Assembly (NCBI RefSeq): GCF_000745835.1
Contig: NZ_JQKB01000013.1
Location: 62,001 to 126,000, forward strand
DNA: 64,000 bases
Reading direction: 5' to 3'
From: Belnapia moabensis DSM 16746
Lineage (GTDB): Bacteria; Pseudomonadota; Alphaproteobacteria; Acetobacterales; Acetobacteraceae
In this document: one piece after another, positions 49,173-56,125 of the stretch
How the letters are laid out: each line of letters begins with the position of its first letter
Position numbering within the stretch: the stretch's first letter is position 1
The notes under the pieces: generated by a model
Database searches by the model: none
Told to the model about the DNA's origin: nothing
The model's input: the letters and a program-made list of their open reading frames with translations, nothing else
Translations under genes and position numbers: made by a program

Positions 49173-52100
49173 TCAGAACGAGCGGTGAAAGTAGGCCTGC
49201 AGGGGGGCCACATCAAGGGTTCCGGCCCGGAGCGCCGCGATCGCATGCACCGCCGCGCGGGCCCCGGCTGCCGTGGTGTAGTGCGGCACCCCATGGGTCA
49301 GGGCGGAGCGGCGGATGTCGAAGCTGTCCGCCACCGACTGCCCGCCCCCCGTCGTGTTGATGACGAGCTGGATGTCGCCCGACTTGATGGCGTCCACGCA
49401 ATGCGGCCGCCCCTCCAGCACCTTGTTGATGATCTCGCAGGCGAGGCCCGCCTCGCGGATGCGCGCCGCCGTCCCCCGCGTCGCCACCACCGCGAAGCCC
49501 ATGTCGATCAGCCGCCGGGCGAGCACCACCGCGGCCGGCTTGTCGCTCTCCTTCACCGAGATGAAAGCACTGCCTGCCAGCGGCAGCTTCACCCCCGCGC
49601 CGAGCTGCGCCTTGGCGAAGGCCCGCTCGAAGCTGGCATCCAGCCCCATCACCTCGCCAGTCGACTTCATCTCCGGCCCGAGGATCACATCGACATTCGG
49701 GAAGCGGTTGAAGGGAAAGACCGCCTCCTTCACCGCCACATGCCGGTTGATGGCGCTGTCATCGAGGTCGAACTCGCCGAGCCGCTGCCCGGCCATGACC
49801 AGCGCGCCGATCTTCGCCACCGGCACGCCCGTCGCCTTGGCGACGAAGGGCACGGTGCGCGAGGCGCGCGGATTGACCTCGAGGACGAAGATGTCGCCGT
49901 CCTTCACCGCATACTGGACGTTCATCAGCCCCTTCACCTTGAGGGCCTTCGCCATCGCCTCCGTCTCCGCCTTCAGCTCGGTGACGATGGCGGGGGGAAG
50001 CGAATAGGGCGGCAGCGAGCAGGCGCTGTCGCCCGAATGGATGCCCGCCTCCTCGATATGCTCCATCACGCCGGCGACATAGACCGTGCCGTCCTCGTCG
50101 GCGATGCAGTCCACATCGACCTCGATCGCATCGGCGAGATACTGGTCGATCAGGATCGGGTTCTCGCCCGAGACCTTCACCGCCTCCTGGCCGAAGCGCA
50201 TGAGCTGCTCGCGGTTCCAGGCGATCTCCATCGCCCGCCCGCCCAACACGTAGCTCGGCCGCACGACGACGGGGTAGCCGATCCGCTCCGCCTCCCGCGC
50301 CGCCTCGTCGAGCGTCCGCGCCGTCCCGTTCTGCGGCTGGCGCAGGCCGAGCCCCTTCAGCAGGTGCTGGAACCGCTCCCGGTCCTCGGCGATGTCGATC
50401 GCCTCCGCCGAGGTGCCGAGGATCGGAATGCCCGCCTTGTGCAGCGCCTGGCTCAGCTTCAGCGGCGTCTGCCCGCCATACTGCACGATGCAGCCGAGCA
50501 GCGTCCCCCGCTCCTGCTCCTTGCGGATGAGGGAGATCACGTCCTCCCCCGTCAGCGGCTCGAAATAGAGCCGGTCGGAGGTGTCGTAGTCGGTCGAGAC
50601 CGTCTCCGGGTTGCAGTTGACCATGATGGTCTCGAAGCCCGCTTCCTTGAGCGCATAGCAGGCATGGACGCAGCAATAGTCGAACTCGATGCCCTGGCCG
50701 ATCCGGTTCGGCCCGCCGCCGAGGATGACGACCTTCTGGCGGTCGGTCGGCCGGCTCTCGCATTCCGGCACCCCGAACCCGCCCTCATAGGTCGAGTACA
50801 TATAAGGTGTGTCGGAGGCGAATTCGGCCGCGCAGGTGTCGATCCGCTTGAAGACCGGCGTGACGCCGAGCTTCAGCCGCAGCGCCTCGACTGCCGCCTC
50901 CGTCGTGCCGGCCAGCTTACCGAGCTGCTTGTCGGAGAAGCCGAGCGCCTTCAGCCCCCGCAGCCCCGCCGCCGTCTTCGGCAGCCCCTCGGCCTTCACC
51001 CGCCGCTCGGCGGCAACGACCTTCTCCACCTCGCGCAGGAACCACGGATCGAACTTGCTGGCCTCGGCGATCTCGGCCAGCGAGACGCCCGCCCGCATCG
51101 CCTGCGCGGCCATGACGATCCGGTCCGGCCGCGGCGTGGCGAGTGCGGCATGAAAAGCTTGCGCGCTGCCATCGCCGGGCGCCGGGATCTCGTCGAGGCC
51201 GGAGAGCCCCGTCTCCAGGCTCCGCAGTCCCTTCTGCAGGGCCTCGGCGAAGCTCCGCCCGATCGCCATCGCCTCGCCGACCGACTTCATGCTGGTGGTC
51301 AGCGTCGCCGGCGTGCCGGGGAATTTCTCGAAGGTGAAGCGTGGGATCTTCACCACCACATAGTCGATCGTCGGCTCGAAGCTGGCCGGCGTCACCATGG
51401 TGATGTCGTTCTTCAGCTCATCGAGCGTGTAGCCGACCGCGAGCTTCGCCGCGACCTTGGCGATCGGGAAGCCCGTCGCCTTCGAGGCCAGCGCCGAGGA
51501 GCGGCTGACCCGCGGGTTCATCTCAATGACCACCATGCGTCCGTCCGCCGGGTTGATGCCGAACTGCACGTTCGACCCGCCGGTATCGACGCCGATCTCG
51601 CGGAGGCAGGCGATGCTCGCATCGCGCATCCGCTGGTATTCCTTGTCGGTCAAGGTCAGCGCCGGCGCGATGGTGACGGAATCACCCGTATGCACGCCCA
51701 TCGCGTCCAGGTTCTCGATGGAGCAGATGATGATGCAGTTGTCCGCGGTGTCGCGGACCACCTCCATCTCATACTCCTTCCACCCCAGCACGCTCTCCTC
51801 GACCAGCACCTCGTTTGTCATCGATGCATCGAGGCCGGCCGCCACGATCTGCTCGAATTCCTCGCGGTTATAGGCGATGCCGCCCCCCGTCCCGCCGAGG
51901 GTGAAGGAGGGCCGGATGACGCAGGGCAGCTTGACGAGGTCGAGCGCCGCCCGCGCCTCCTCCATCGTATGCGCGATGGCCGAGCGCGGGCTCTCGATAC
52001 CGATCTTCGTCATGGCATCGCGGAATTTCAGCCGGTCCTCCGCCTTGTCGATGACCTCCGCCTTGGCTCCGATCAGCTCGCAGCCATACTTCTCCAGCAC

Positions 52101-52418
52101 CCCCGCCTCGGCGAGCTTGAGCGAGGTATTGAGCGCCGTCTGCCCGCCCATGGTCGGCAGCAGCGCATCCGGCCGCTCCTTGGCGATGATCTTCTCGACC
52201 ATCTCGACGGTGATCGGCTCGATATAGGTCGCATCCGCCAGCCCGGGATCAGTCATGATCGTCGCCGGGTTGGAGTTCACCAGGATGACGCGATAGCCCT
52301 CCGCCCTGAGCGCCTTGCAGGCCTGCGCCCCGGAATAATCGAACTCTGCTGCCTGGCCGATGACGATCGGCCCGGCGCCGAGGATGAGGATGGACTTGAT
52401 GTCGGTGCGCTTCGGCAT
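49173..52418 (-). CDS. carB: Carbamoyl-phosphate synthase large subunit
   Basis: A 1081-residue CarB with two homologous ATP-grasp halves. It begins [30 protein letters not shown]. It has [29 protein letters not shown] in half one, and [24 protein letters not shown] and [18 protein letters not shown] in half two, with a C-terminal MGS-like regulatory domain. It makes carbamoyl phosphate for arginine and pyrimidines with CarA. carA is 1.7 kb upstream, separated by three other genes on the same strand. Confidence 0.98.
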
Positions 52419-53397: not shown

Positions 53398-54156
53398 TCA
53401 GCCCTGGACCGAGAACCCGCCATCCACCGGGATCGCCACGCCGGTGATGAACCCGCTCGCATCACTCCCGAGGAAGGCCGCGAGCCCCTCGAAATCCTCC
53501 ATCGTGCCCCAGCGCCCCTTCGGCGTCCGCGCCAGGACATTGTCGTTGAGGCCCGGCATGTCCTTGCGGGCCTTGCGCGTCAGCTCGGTGTCGATCCAGC
53601 CCGGCAGCACCGCATTCACCGTGATCCCGTCCGCTGCCCAGGCGACGGCGAGCGACTTGGTGAACTGCACCACGCCGCCCTTCGACGCCGCATAGGCAAT
53701 ATGAAAGGGCAGCCCGAAGATCGACAGCATCGAGCCGTTGTTGATCACCCGCCCATGCCCGCTGGCCTTCAGATGCGGATAGGCCGCCTTGGAGGCGAGG
53801 TAGGCGCTGGTCAGGTTGGTGTCGATCACCTGATGCCAGTCCGCCTCGGCATAGACCTCCGGCCGGTTGCGGATATTCGTCCCCGCATTGTTCACCAGGA
53901 TGTCGATGCCGCCGAAGCGCTCGGCCGTCGCGGCCACCATCGCCTCGATGCTGGCGCCGTCGGTCACGTCGACGATGACCGCATCCGCCTCCGCGCCGAG
54001 GCCCTTCAGCTCCGCGACGGCTGTAGCATTCTTCTCGGCATTCCGCCCGGCGACCATCACGCGCGCGCCGGCCTTCGCCAGCCCCCGCGCGAAGCCGAGG
54101 CCGATCCCGCCATTCCCGCCGGTGACCAGCCCGGTGCGGCCCTTCAGGTCGAACAT
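53398..54156 (-). CDS. Short-chain dehydrogenase/reductase
   Basis: A 252-residue classical SDR: nucleotide-binding GLVTGGNGGIGLGFA, NNAG in DILVNNAGTN, catalytic Ser in INNGSMLS, and YAASK. The C-terminus AAFLGSDASGFITGVAIPVDGGF is typical of gluconate 5-dehydrogenase/3-oxoacyl-ACP-reductase-like members. Substrate unknown. Its ATG overlaps the carA stop (TGATG), an unusually tight coupling of an SDR to carA. Confidence 0.93.
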   Translation of the reverse strand: MFDLKGRTGLVTGGNGGIGLGFARGLAKAGARVMVAGRNAEKNATAVAELKGLGAEADAVIVDVTDGASIEAMVAATAERFGGIDILVNNAGTNIRNRPEVYAEADWHQVIDTNLTSAYLASKAAYPHLKASGHGRVINNGSMLSIFGLPFHIAYAASKGGVVQFTKSLAVAWAADGITVNAVLPGWIDTELTRKARKDMPGLNDNVLARTPKGRWGTMEDFEGLAAFLGSDASGFITGVAIPVDGGFSVQG

Positions 54157-55532
54157 CACGCCCCTCCCTTGTTCTTCTCGATCAGCTCGACGAAGCGATG
54201 GAACAGGTAGTGGCTGTCCGTCGGCCCCGGCGAGGCTTCTGGATGATACTGCACCGAGAAGGCCGGCCGGTCCGTCGCCATCAGCCCCTCGTTCGAATTG
54301 TCGAAGAGGGAGATGTGCGTGACCTTCACGCCCTCGGGCAAGTTCTTGTCGTCCACGGCGAAGCCATGGTTCTGGCTGGTGATCTCGACCCGCCCCGTGG
54401 CCAGGTCCTTCACCGGCTGGTTCGCGCCCCGATGCCCGCGATCCAGCTTGTAGGTCTTCCCGCCCAGCGCCAGGCCCAGCAGCTGATGCCCGAGGCAGAT
54501 GCCGAAGACCGGCACCCGCTTCTCCAGCACGCCCTGGATCACCGGCACCGCATACTCGCCCGTCGCCGCCGGGTCGCCGGGGCCGTTGGAGAGGAAGACG
54601 CCATCCGGCTCGTGCCGCAGGATCTCCTCCGCCGTCGCCGTCGCCGGCACCACCGTCACGTCGAGCCCAGCCGAGGCGAGGCAGCGGAGGATATTCCGCT
54701 TCGCCCCGTAATCCACCGCGACCACCTTGTGCCGCGCCGCCGTCTGCTTGCCGAAGCCCTCCGGCCAGGCCCAGGTGGTCTCGTCCCAATGATAGGACTG
54801 GCGGCAGGAAACCTCCTTCGCCAGGTCCATCCCCTCCAGCCCCGGCCAGGCCGCCGCCTGCGCGCGCAACGCATCGAGGTCGAACCGCCCATCCGCCGGG
54901 AAGCAGAGCACCCCGTTCGGCGCGCCCCCGTCGCGGATGCGGATGGTCAGCGCCCGCGTATCGACGCCGGCGATGCCCGGGATGCCGAAGGACTTCAGCC
55001 AGTCGTCGAGATGCCGCGTCGCCCGGTAGTTGGCCGGCTCCGTCAGGTCCTGCTTGACGACGAGCCCCCGCGCCGCCGGCGTCACCGCCTCGATATCCTC
55101 GGGGTTGGCGCCGACATTGCCGATATGCGGGAAGGTGAAGGTGATGATCTGCCCGGCATAGGAGGGGTCGGTCAGCGTCTCCTGATACCCCGTCATGCCG
55201 GTATTGAAGCAGACCTCGGCCACCGGAGCCGCCCCCGGCGCTGTCTGCGCCCCGAAGCCTCGGCCCCAGAAGACGCTGCCATCGGCCAGCACCAGGCAGG
55301 CGGTCGCGCCTTCGGGAACGGTCTCGGTCATGTCTGTCTCCACACGGGGTTCCGGGGTGCCCGGCATGTCGGCGAGCGTCAGGCCGGTGGCGCCGAGGAT
55401 GGCGGGCCAATGGCGGGCGGGAATGGCCCGCGCCTGCCGCCATTTCCGCACTGCTTCGGTACCGATGCCGCAACGCGCCGCGGCGGCCTCCGGGCCGCCG
55501 AGCTGAACGATGATTTCTTCGACGGTCCTCAT
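54156..55532 (-). CDS. carA: Carbamoyl-phosphate synthase small subunit with N-terminal helix-turn-helix extension
   Basis: A 458-residue frame. Residues 68-458 are a normal CarA: ACLVLADGSVFWGRGFGA, CFNTGMTGYQETLTDPSYAGQI, and a class I glutamine amidotransferase domain with Cys in PVFGICLGHQLLG and His-Pro-Glu in VQYHPEASPGP. Residues 1-60 form a compact helix-turn-helix (VEEIIVQLGGPEAAAARCGI, then TEAVRKWRQARAIPARHW) of the Cro/YdaS-like type, which I recall is found fused to CarA in some alphaproteobacteria. A second ATG at 55331, with GGAG six bases upstream, could yield CarA alone. Two palindromes lie directly upstream. Confidence 0.93.
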   Translation of the reverse strand: MRTVEEIIVQLGGPEAAAARCGIGTEAVRKWRQARAIPARHWPAILGATGLTLADMPGTPEPRVETDMTETVPEGATACLVLADGSVFWGRGFGAQTAPGAAPVAEVCFNTGMTGYQETLTDPSYAGQIITFTFPHIGNVGANPEDIEAVTPAARGLVVKQDLTEPANYRATRHLDDWLKSFGIPGIAGVDTRALTIRIRDGGAPNGVLCFPADGRFDLDALRAQAAAWPGLEGMDLAKEVSCRQSYHWDETTWAWPEGFGKQTAARHKVVAVDYGAKRNILRCLASAGLDVTVVPATATAEEILRHEPDGVFLSNGPGDPAATGEYAVPVIQGVLEKRVPVFGICLGHQLLGLALGGKTYKLDRGHRGANQPVKDLATGRVEITSQNHGFAVDDKNLPEGVKVTHISLFDNSNEGLMATDRPAFSVQYHPEASPGPTDSHYLFHRFVELIEKNKGGA

Positions 55533-55545
55533 GCGGGAAACATGC

Positions 55546-55560
55546 GGGAAAGAACTTCCC
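55546..55560. promoter_or_regulatory. Operator-like palindrome, carA-proximal copy
   Basis: A 15-base palindrome GGGAA-AGAAC-TTCCC begins 14 bases upstream of the carA-HTH ATG. It overlaps a tandem 11-base direct repeat (ATGCGGGAAA[C/G], 55531-55552), which adds a third GGGAA half-site one helical turn away. Confidence 0.65.
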
Positions 55561-55582
55561 ATTTCAAGCCGGAAGGCGAGGG

Positions 55583-55599
55583 TGGGAAAAAACTTCCCA
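55583..55599. promoter_or_regulatory. Operator-like palindrome, distal copy
   Basis: A 17-base palindrome TGGGAA-AAAAC-TTCCCA sits 38 bases (centre to centre) from the proximal copy. On the carA strand the two share ATGGGAAGTT[C/T]TTTCCC. It lies about 60 bases from the divergent yqeY ATG, so one regulator could act on both genes. Confidence 0.65.
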
Positions 55600-55660
55600 T
55601 TCCCTTCTCTGCCCCACCCCATGCTACAGCCCCGCACCCCATAGCACCGGAGACATTTCC

Positions 55661-56125
55661 ATGGCCGAGGACCTGCGCAGCCGTTTCACCGAGTCCCTCA
55701 AGGCCGCCATGCTCGCCAAGGACACCGCCCGCACCTCCACCCTGCGGATGATCCTCGCCAAGCTGAAGGACGTGGACATCGCCGCCCGTCCCTCCGGCGT
55801 CGACAAGGTTCCCGACGACCAGATCACGGCGATGCTCCGCGGTATGGCCAAGAGCCGGCGCGAGAGTGTCGAACTTTACCGCCAGGGCAACCGCCCCGAA
55901 CTCGCCGAGAAGGAGGAGGCGGAGATCGCCGTCATCGAGGGCTTCCTTCCCCAGCAGATGGACGACGCGGCGATGCAGGCCGCCGTCCAGGCCGCCATCG
56001 CCGAGACCGGCGCCAGCGGCATCAAGGAGATGGGCAAGGTAATGTCCGCCCTGCGCGCCAAGCACGCCGCCAGCCTCGACATGGCCAAGGCTGGCCCGCT
56101 GGTGAAGGCCGCGCTCGGGGGCTGA
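55661..56125 (+). CDS. GatB/YqeY domain-containing protein
   Basis: A 154-residue YqeY-type protein: LRSRFTESLKAAMLAKDTARTSTLRMILAKLKD, then LRGMAKSRRESVELYRQGNRPELAEKEEAEIAVIEGFLPQQM, and a C-terminal GIKEMGKVMSALRAKHA. It resembles the tRNA-binding tail of GatB and may act on tRNA or translation, but its function is not settled. It is divergent from carA over 128 bases, a common alphaproteobacterial arrangement. Confidence 0.92.
   Translation: MAEDLRSRFTESLKAAMLAKDTARTSTLRMILAKLKDVDIAARPSGVDKVPDDQITAMLRGMAKSRRESVELYRQGNRPELAEKEEAEIAVIEGFLPQQMDDAAMQAAVQAAIAETGASGIKEMGKVMSALRAKHAASLDMAKAGPLVKAALGG

Follow-up and report, generated by a model that had tools for sequence, protein, structure and literature searches.

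The window analyzed here, 64,000 nucleotides of Belnapia moabensis DSM 16746 (contig NZ_JQKB01000013.1), contains a carA gene, encoding the small subunit of carbamoyl-phosphate synthase, that begins with a helix-turn-helix (HTH) domain. Upstream of this HTH-carA gene lie two operator-like palindromes and, in divergent orientation, yqeY; downstream follow a short-chain dehydrogenase/reductase (SDR) gene, a LysE-like gene, and carB (Table 1). Four features emerge from comparison across genomes of the family Acetobacteraceae: the fusion, the operator-like sites, the co-occurrence of the two, and the geometry of the promoter. From these sequence comparisons we consider it highly probable that HTH-CarA combines the roles of enzyme and transcriptional autorepressor, acting on its own promoter.

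An HTH domain fused to CarA

An earlier note on this DNA had claimed that the carA frame carries 67 extra N-terminal residues forming an HTH, and profile searches bear this out. In the 458-aa frame, 67 residues precede an internal ATG at 55331, and the 66-residue N terminus matches the NCBIfam model NF046037 (carph-isopro) with an E value of 2.4e-18 and 66.1 bits (cut-off 38). Residues 78-453 constitute a full CarA (TIGR01368, 448.6 bits, cut-off 307.35), as in a full-length small subunit, and C346 (in GICLGHQ), H430, and E432, the catalytic Cys-His-Glu residues of the CarA glutaminase, are unchanged across 29 aligned CarA sequences. By these profile matches, a catalytic domain and a DNA-binding-type domain share a single chain. 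The HTH sequence is well conserved among aligned relatives, its closest matches in named organisms coming from Belnapia and further members of the Roseomonas group (Acetobacteraceae); its recognition-helix residue is Q33, within RKWRQ, and the entire Belnapia genome holds one copy of the domain above cut-off.

A profile built from 14 such HTH sequences was compared with solved structures, and the four best matches, all with weak E values, were phage-type Cro proteins: 2hin (0.0015), 5w8y (XPH1, a Cro protein; 0.0041), 3bd1 (0.0064), and 1rzs (0.095). The nearest solved relatives are thus the N15, Xfaso, and P22 Cro proteins (2hin, 3bd1, and 1rzs), which stand alone, whereas the CarA HTH is the N terminus of an enzyme. 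The domain fell under the gathering thresholds of Pfam P22_Cro (22.6 bits, cut-off 30.2) and YdaS (23.0 bits, cut-off 30); by profile it is Cro-like, without formal membership of the P22/N15 Cro family. Since fusions to LeuA (isopropylmalate synthase) also pass the NF046037 cut-off, as the CarA HTH does, the name carph-isopro probably combines carbamoyl phosphate and isopropylmalate; the entry as seen gives a domain name only, and states no function, operator, or autoregulation.

To assess the fusion more broadly, we used a main set of 100 genomes (94 genomes above the domain cut-off out of 100 drawn from the family, plus 6 genus relatives) and a second, overlapping set of 80 named loci. In 94 of the 100 genomes, HTH and CarA are encoded without a break in one frame of 437 codons or more; 4 frames run off contigs and 2 are interrupted. 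The linker between them, measured at 96 loci (4 of the 100 being omitted), ranges from 13 to 71 aa. That the linker varies so much in length while the frame stays open speaks for production of, and selection on, the fused protein. The HTH as a separate small gene was considered and rejected, given that the frame stays open through the linkers in those 94 genomes. Outside the family, no CarA fusion was present among the 50 domain loci inspected in a survey of the class, which sampled part of its matches. Some family genomes also hold short stand-alone proteins with related domains, and at a few loci of the same family (L138, L139, L141-L144) the HTH is fused to TorD-like chaperones, NCBIfam TorD being below cut-off for L138 and the others being assigned by their likeness to it.

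Twin palindromes and their co-occurrence with the HTH

The earlier note had also described two near-identical palindromes with centers 38 bases apart, and both proved to be exact copies of GGGAA-N5-TTCCC. The genome-wide count alone is unconvincing: the exact palindrome occurs at 4 places in the 6.7-Mb genome, two of which are the carA pair, and a reversed control pattern occurs at 5. Single exact palindromes are therefore not rare, yet close pairing and conservation, which carry the case, speak against chance, and we rejected chance as the origin of the pair. None of 200 dinucleotide-shuffled versions of the 170-bp carA upstream region contained an equally good pair. A third half-site (GGGAA), which the earlier note had counted as well, is present at 55535-55539, over the predicted -10, but by eye it recurs in only part of the genus; it was dropped as evidence and given no weight.

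Across the main set, at least one palindrome (up to one mismatch, 250 bp upstream) was found in 93 of the 100 HTH-CarA genomes, with two in 79, one in 14, and none in 7. L096, a second match of genome G052 that is not CarA, was left out of these counts and of those for residue 33. The commonest spacing was 38 bp (27 pairs), and 62 of the 79 pairs were 37-40 bp apart. The same scan yielded 0 of 100 within the gene and 14 of 2000 in mononucleotide shuffles. All 80 named loci have a palindrome upstream of HTH-carA, and 75 have two. Among the seven genomes scored without a palindrome, five have an exact CGGAA-N5-TTCCG and two (G049 and G088) have more degenerate look-alike sites.

As controls, a CarA-body search of 40 genomes gave 30 loci, 28 of them usable (L252, which has the HTH, and L234, at a contig edge, were omitted). 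Neither the palindrome nor an exact GGAA-N5-TTCC core was found in the 390 bp upstream of these 28 HTH-less carA genes, and the in-family HTH-less carA of G044 showed no palindrome even when two mismatches were allowed, giving 0 of 29 without the HTH against 93 of 100 with it. The palindromes are thus not equally common upstream of carA genes lacking the HTH, and they are present in CarA-HTH genomes other than Belnapia. G496, one of the 28, is likewise an in-family HTH-less control without a palindrome, in a genus whose other genomes include bearers of the HTH. Both G496 (L248) and G044 (L361) are small genomes of 1.7-1.9 Mb.

We also compared residue 33, which is Q in 93 of the 100 genomes, with the outer base of the half-site (base 7). 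This base was G in 269, C in 15, and another base in 8 of the 292 exact-core half-sites of Q genomes; among the 16 half-sites of six non-Q genomes (S, T, or H) it was G 5 times and C 11 times, the seventh non-Q genome (A) having no exact core. At least one C half-site occurred in 14 of the 93 Q genomes and 6 of the 7 non-Q genomes. On a CarA-body tree of 93 rows (7 of the 100 loci, with no core found or too short, were omitted), residue 33 switched between Q and non-Q on at least 4 occasions, and at least 9 switches of operator type took place. Because the covariation is strong in raw counts and not significant on the tree, we use it as support only.

HTH-CarA looks dedicated to its own gene, judging from where strong sites fall. 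Exact TGGGAA-N5-TTCCCA sites occur in 62 of 100 family genomes among the matches listed, and outside genome G086, 63 of 70 strong sites among the matches listed lie within 250 bp of HTH-carA. A wider regulon is disfavored, with only 7 of those 70 away from carA, again among the matches listed. G086 itself has 11 such places, 5 listed ones sharing one sequence in either orientation on several contigs, and these probably represent a repeat or mobile element.

Predicted promoter, internal start, and neighboring genes

In 69 genomes, the operator lies no more than 32 nt from the ATG. There, the positions 7, 6, and 5 bases ahead of the operator are T, T, and G in 97, 93, and 91% of cases, and one base past the operator starts a (T/C)AT-like triplet (first position T or C in 92%, then A in 93% and T in 61%). 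The proximal operator plus one base on each side makes up the 17-bp spacer of a TTGnnn/YATnnn promoter. The ATG follows 13-14 nt past the operator, i.e., 6-7 nt past the -10, in 60 of the 100 genomes. A ribosome-site motif ahead of the ATG was found in 1 of 64 short-leader genomes versus 18 of 31 long-leader genomes, a count that leaves aside the 5 loci whose operator ends 16-32 nt before the ATG. In short-leader genomes, Belnapia included, carA mRNA is probably leaderless from the HTH-CarA ATG. The predicted promoter letters fit the consensus published for the family member Gluconobacter oxydans, whose primary transcriptome is reported to comprise ttGnnn and nAtnnn or Tatnnn promoters and 62 leaderless mRNAs (PMC5756330); the word carbamoyl is absent from the main text of that paper.

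A further proposal of the earlier note, that an internal ATG could give two products from one carA gene, finds partial support. GGAG lies 6 nt upstream of the ATG at 55331, and all 8 genus genomes, the present one among them, have GGAG-N6-ATG ahead of the CarA body. Among 147 distinct linkers from both sets, 113 contain an in-frame ATG and 84 combine it with a ribosome site, compared with 11.3 expected from codon shuffles that ignore relatedness (44 of 96 versus 6.4 in the family-wide set alone). Within the CarA body, only 19 of 462 ATG codons have such a site. The combination is lacking in 63 of the 147 linkers, and 34 have no in-frame ATG; on this sequence evidence, the internal start belongs to a clade or is left over as a relic, and does not form the heart of the system.

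These figures bear directly on a two-form scheme, compatible with autorepression, in which leaderless full-length HTH-CarA would be a minor regulator and the start at 55331 would make most of the enzyme. The enrichment in linkers, the constancy within the genus, and the rarity of such sites in the CarA body all favor it. However, linkers without the site or without any in-frame ATG mean that it cannot be the general mode, and the internal start may be a relic of the carA start that preceded the fusion. We give this scheme a little less than an even chance.

Regarding the neighbors, carB lies on the same strand downstream of carA in 73 of the 80 named loci, with a gap of 0.3-3.4 kb in those 73. 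The carA stop overlaps the ATG of the next gene, the SDR gene (54154-54158, ATGA), which suggests translational coupling. By tblastn, 67 of the 80 named loci have a protein similar to the SDR product, and 65 have one similar to the LysE-like product.

Table 1. Features of the HTH-carA locus, in window positions
Feature	Position	Strand	Remarks
HTH-CarA coding sequence	54156..55532	-	ATG at 55532, 458 aa plus stop (54156-54158); carbamoyl-phosphate synthase small subunit with N-terminal HTH
Cro-like HTH, NF046037 carph-isopro, residues 4-56	55365..55523	-	NCBIfam match; profile versus solved structures
Variable linker, its end	55332..55364	-	GGAG at 55338-55341, then ATG at 55331-55329, possible internal start for HTH-free CarA
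Predicted -10, CATGTT	55539..55544	-	ATG 55532 starts 6 nt further; leaderless mRNA predicted
Proximal operator-like palindrome, GGGAA-N5-TTCCC	55546..55560	.	GGGAAAGAACTTCCC, exact; inside predicted promoter spacer
Predicted -35, TTGAAA	55562..55567	-	T, T, G conserved at this offset; ttGnnn known from Gluconobacter oxydans (PMC5756330)
Distal operator-like palindrome, GGGAA-N5-TTCCC	55584..55598	.	GGGAAAAAACTTCCC, exact; center 38 bp from proximal
yqeY, divergent neighbor, not judged main target	55661..56125	+	Open reading frame
carB	49173..52418	-	Downstream of carA, SDR gene and LysE-like gene between; open reading frame, names read from sequence

Proposed feedback, rival explanations, and related enzymes

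The suggestion of the earlier note that the enzyme feeds back on its own promoter is supported by the co-occurrence of palindromes and HTH and by the Cro-like profile of the latter. From these we infer DNA binding, repression rather than activation, and any metabolite signal and, more weakly, that CarAB passes its allosteric state to the HTH. More specifically, the phage Cro-like HTH on CarA would bind the two 15-bp palindromes (half-site GGGAA), ~38 bp apart, before its own gene. Since the proximal palindrome fills the -35/-10 spacer, an HTH-CarA dimer on it should occlude RNA polymerase. The distal palindrome should contribute cooperativity, since CarAB as a holoenzyme is oligomeric and could present several HTHs; both steps are drawn from the geometry and from kinship with Cro. 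Transcription would start at or beside the ATG, so that the full-length form would be translated from a leaderless mRNA, and the internal ribosome site could also yield HTH-free CarA in many genomes, the Belnapia genus included. Tuning could come from the enzyme's allosteric state (UMP, ornithine, and IMP via CarB) or from CarA dose. None of 13 genomes, Belnapia included, yielded ArgR (PF01316), against 9 of 14 control genomes that did, and self-control by the enzyme could fill this gap.

Several observations weigh against autorepression in this form. In 31 of the 100 genomes, more than 32 nt separate the operators from the ATG and the promoter has a different layout, and the exact occlusion geometry predicted here is not universal. 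The sequence would also be compatible with activation, and the domain also heads membrane-protein-like and TorD-like proteins, in which self-repression is not obvious. Residue 33 and operator type are not tightly coupled in these sequences: besides the 14 Q genomes with some C half-site, G094 and G088 keep Q33 with C-type or mixed sites, and the non-Q genome G079 has mainly G-type sites. The tree offers at most 4 independent pairs, 1 of them on supported branches, which is below significance; that single pair goes in the expected direction in 0.9 of draws and shows no difference in 0.1. In addition, of the six family genomes that lack the domain, five (G034, G041, G053, G083, and G089) have carA missing or cut off and allow no judgment, and all counts share ancestry.

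Autorepression might also be plain dose control, in which HTH-CarA represses by its amount, or its CarB-free amount, with no metabolite sensing. The distance between carA and carB means that balancing CarA against CarB could be useful, and the range of linker lengths argues against tight mechanical coupling between HTH and enzyme. On the other hand, related heads sit mostly on enzymes known to bind, and be feedback-inhibited by, the end products of their pathways (LeuA, HisZ-HisG, ArgB, PyrB, and SerA), which points to sensing. We consider dose control somewhat less likely than not.

It is very improbable that another transcription factor owns the palindromes, leaving the CarA HTH vestigial or with other targets. 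In its favor, binding of the palindromes by the HTH is a prediction, and short stand-alone relatives exist in some family genomes. Against it, genomes with the HTH have palindromes and carA genes without the HTH lack them, the HTH shows good conservation and has a single copy above cut-off in Belnapia, and strong sites elsewhere are few among the matches listed. That the operators serve yqeY, or that HTH-CarA activates, also has very little to recommend it: yqeY is divergent and about 85-250 bp away in 65 of the 80 named loci, but the palindromes remain at carA in 10 loci where yqeY lies 1-4 kb off (yqeY being found in 75 of 80), for which we rejected them as yqeY sites, and a site inside the -35/-10 spacer is in a typical repressor position.

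Similar heads occur on other enzymes. Outside the family, domains that match the same model, in some cases below cut-off, head LeuA, HisZ-like, ArgB, PyrB, SerA, and PdhA proteins, and a related head is found on CoaBC, where carph-isopro did not reach an E value of 1e-5 in the case tested. The enzyme parts of LeuA, PyrB, ArgB, SerA, CoaBC, and PdhA pass NCBIfam cut-offs (one or two representatives each); HisZ is the best match of its case but below the NCBIfam cut-off, with Pfam tRNA-synt_His above threshold. The LeuA fusions come from four genomes outside the class (G612, G837, G881, and G882; loci L370, L371, L397, and L398), the LeuA identity having been checked for G612 and G837 (L370 and L371), and upstream of them repeated TTTGAC/GTCTAA-like half-sites can be seen by eye. 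The remaining heads are spread over several alphaproteobacterial families: HisZ-like (L337-L342, L346), ArgB (L194, L363-L365), PyrB (L189), SerA (L198), CoaBC (L184, L186, L187), and PdhA (L195). In many other alphaproteobacteria, the domain, of a GGIRPMA type, heads a Pro/Ala-rich protein that by eye looks like membrane proteins of the mitofilin type (L149-L178, e.g., L150:469-1659); L150 has no family match other than the carph-isopro domain.

The pairs upstream of these genes were scored by the number of dinucleotide shuffles, out of 200, that were as good as the real one. Twin palindromes are clear for one HisZ group (f49: TTCAT-N5-ATGAA, 39 bp apart in 3 of 3; shuffles 0, 6, and 0), for one ArgB group (f59: TTACT-N5-AGTAA, 34 bp apart in 3 of 4; shuffles 0, 0, 1, and 45, the fourth gene having just 103 bp upstream and a half-site changed by eye), and for one PyrB gene with a close pair 22 bp apart (1 shuffle). 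Elsewhere they are weak or absent: HisZ f19 (7, 5, 49, and 11), HisZ f121 (143, 154, and 149), CoaBC (72, 105, 2, and 58), SerA (80), ArgB f118 (71), and PdhA (67). When the same test was applied to the 28 HTH-less carA controls, one gave 0 of 100 and the rest at least 16 of 100. We lean slightly toward the view that Cro-like heads have been captured repeatedly in Proteobacteria by biosynthetic enzymes, mostly committed-step and end-product-binding ones (CarA, LeuA, HisZ, ArgB, PyrB, SerA, and also CoaBC), each of which would repress itself through its own twin operators, an allosteric site replacing a dedicated regulator. Because most of the fused enzymes are classical targets of end-product inhibition, allosteric enzymes may have been ready sensors.

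Enzymes that repress their own pathway genes are already known, namely, PutA of proline utilization, which bears a ribbon-helix-helix at its N terminus, and the biotin ligase BirA, which bears an HTH there, and the domain studied here is already catalogued by NCBI. HTH-CarA, a putative repressor, resembles them as a metabolic enzyme fused to a DNA-binding domain; they differ in the fold or origin of that domain and in pathway, CarA having a Cro-like head on carbamoyl-phosphate synthase and twin sites set in a leaderless-looking promoter. In Escherichia coli, transcription of carAB is under the control of ArgR, PurR, RutR, IHF, and the trigger enzymes PepA and PyrH; UMP inhibits the enzyme, and ornithine and IMP activate it (PMC6245113). 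There too, enzymes moonlight in the transcriptional control of the same enzyme function, but through separate regulators, several of them acting on a region of ~350 bp (PMC6245113), whereas with HTH-CarA the enzyme subunit itself would regulate. A search of titles and abstract beginnings, with most subscription journals outside its coverage, found no paper on the function, operators, or autoregulation of carph-isopro.

If autorepression by HTH-CarA is true, the family controls entry into arginine and pyrimidine synthesis by an enzyme acting on its own promoter, in a short loop without a separate regulator. With the sites, the recognition-helix residue, and natural head-less cases in hand, this is directly testable. 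Should other pathways use this design as well, enzymes that bind end products can turn into transcription factors by acquiring a 60-residue head, which bears on the evolution of bacterial regulation and on annotation, such genes being named mainly for their enzyme part.

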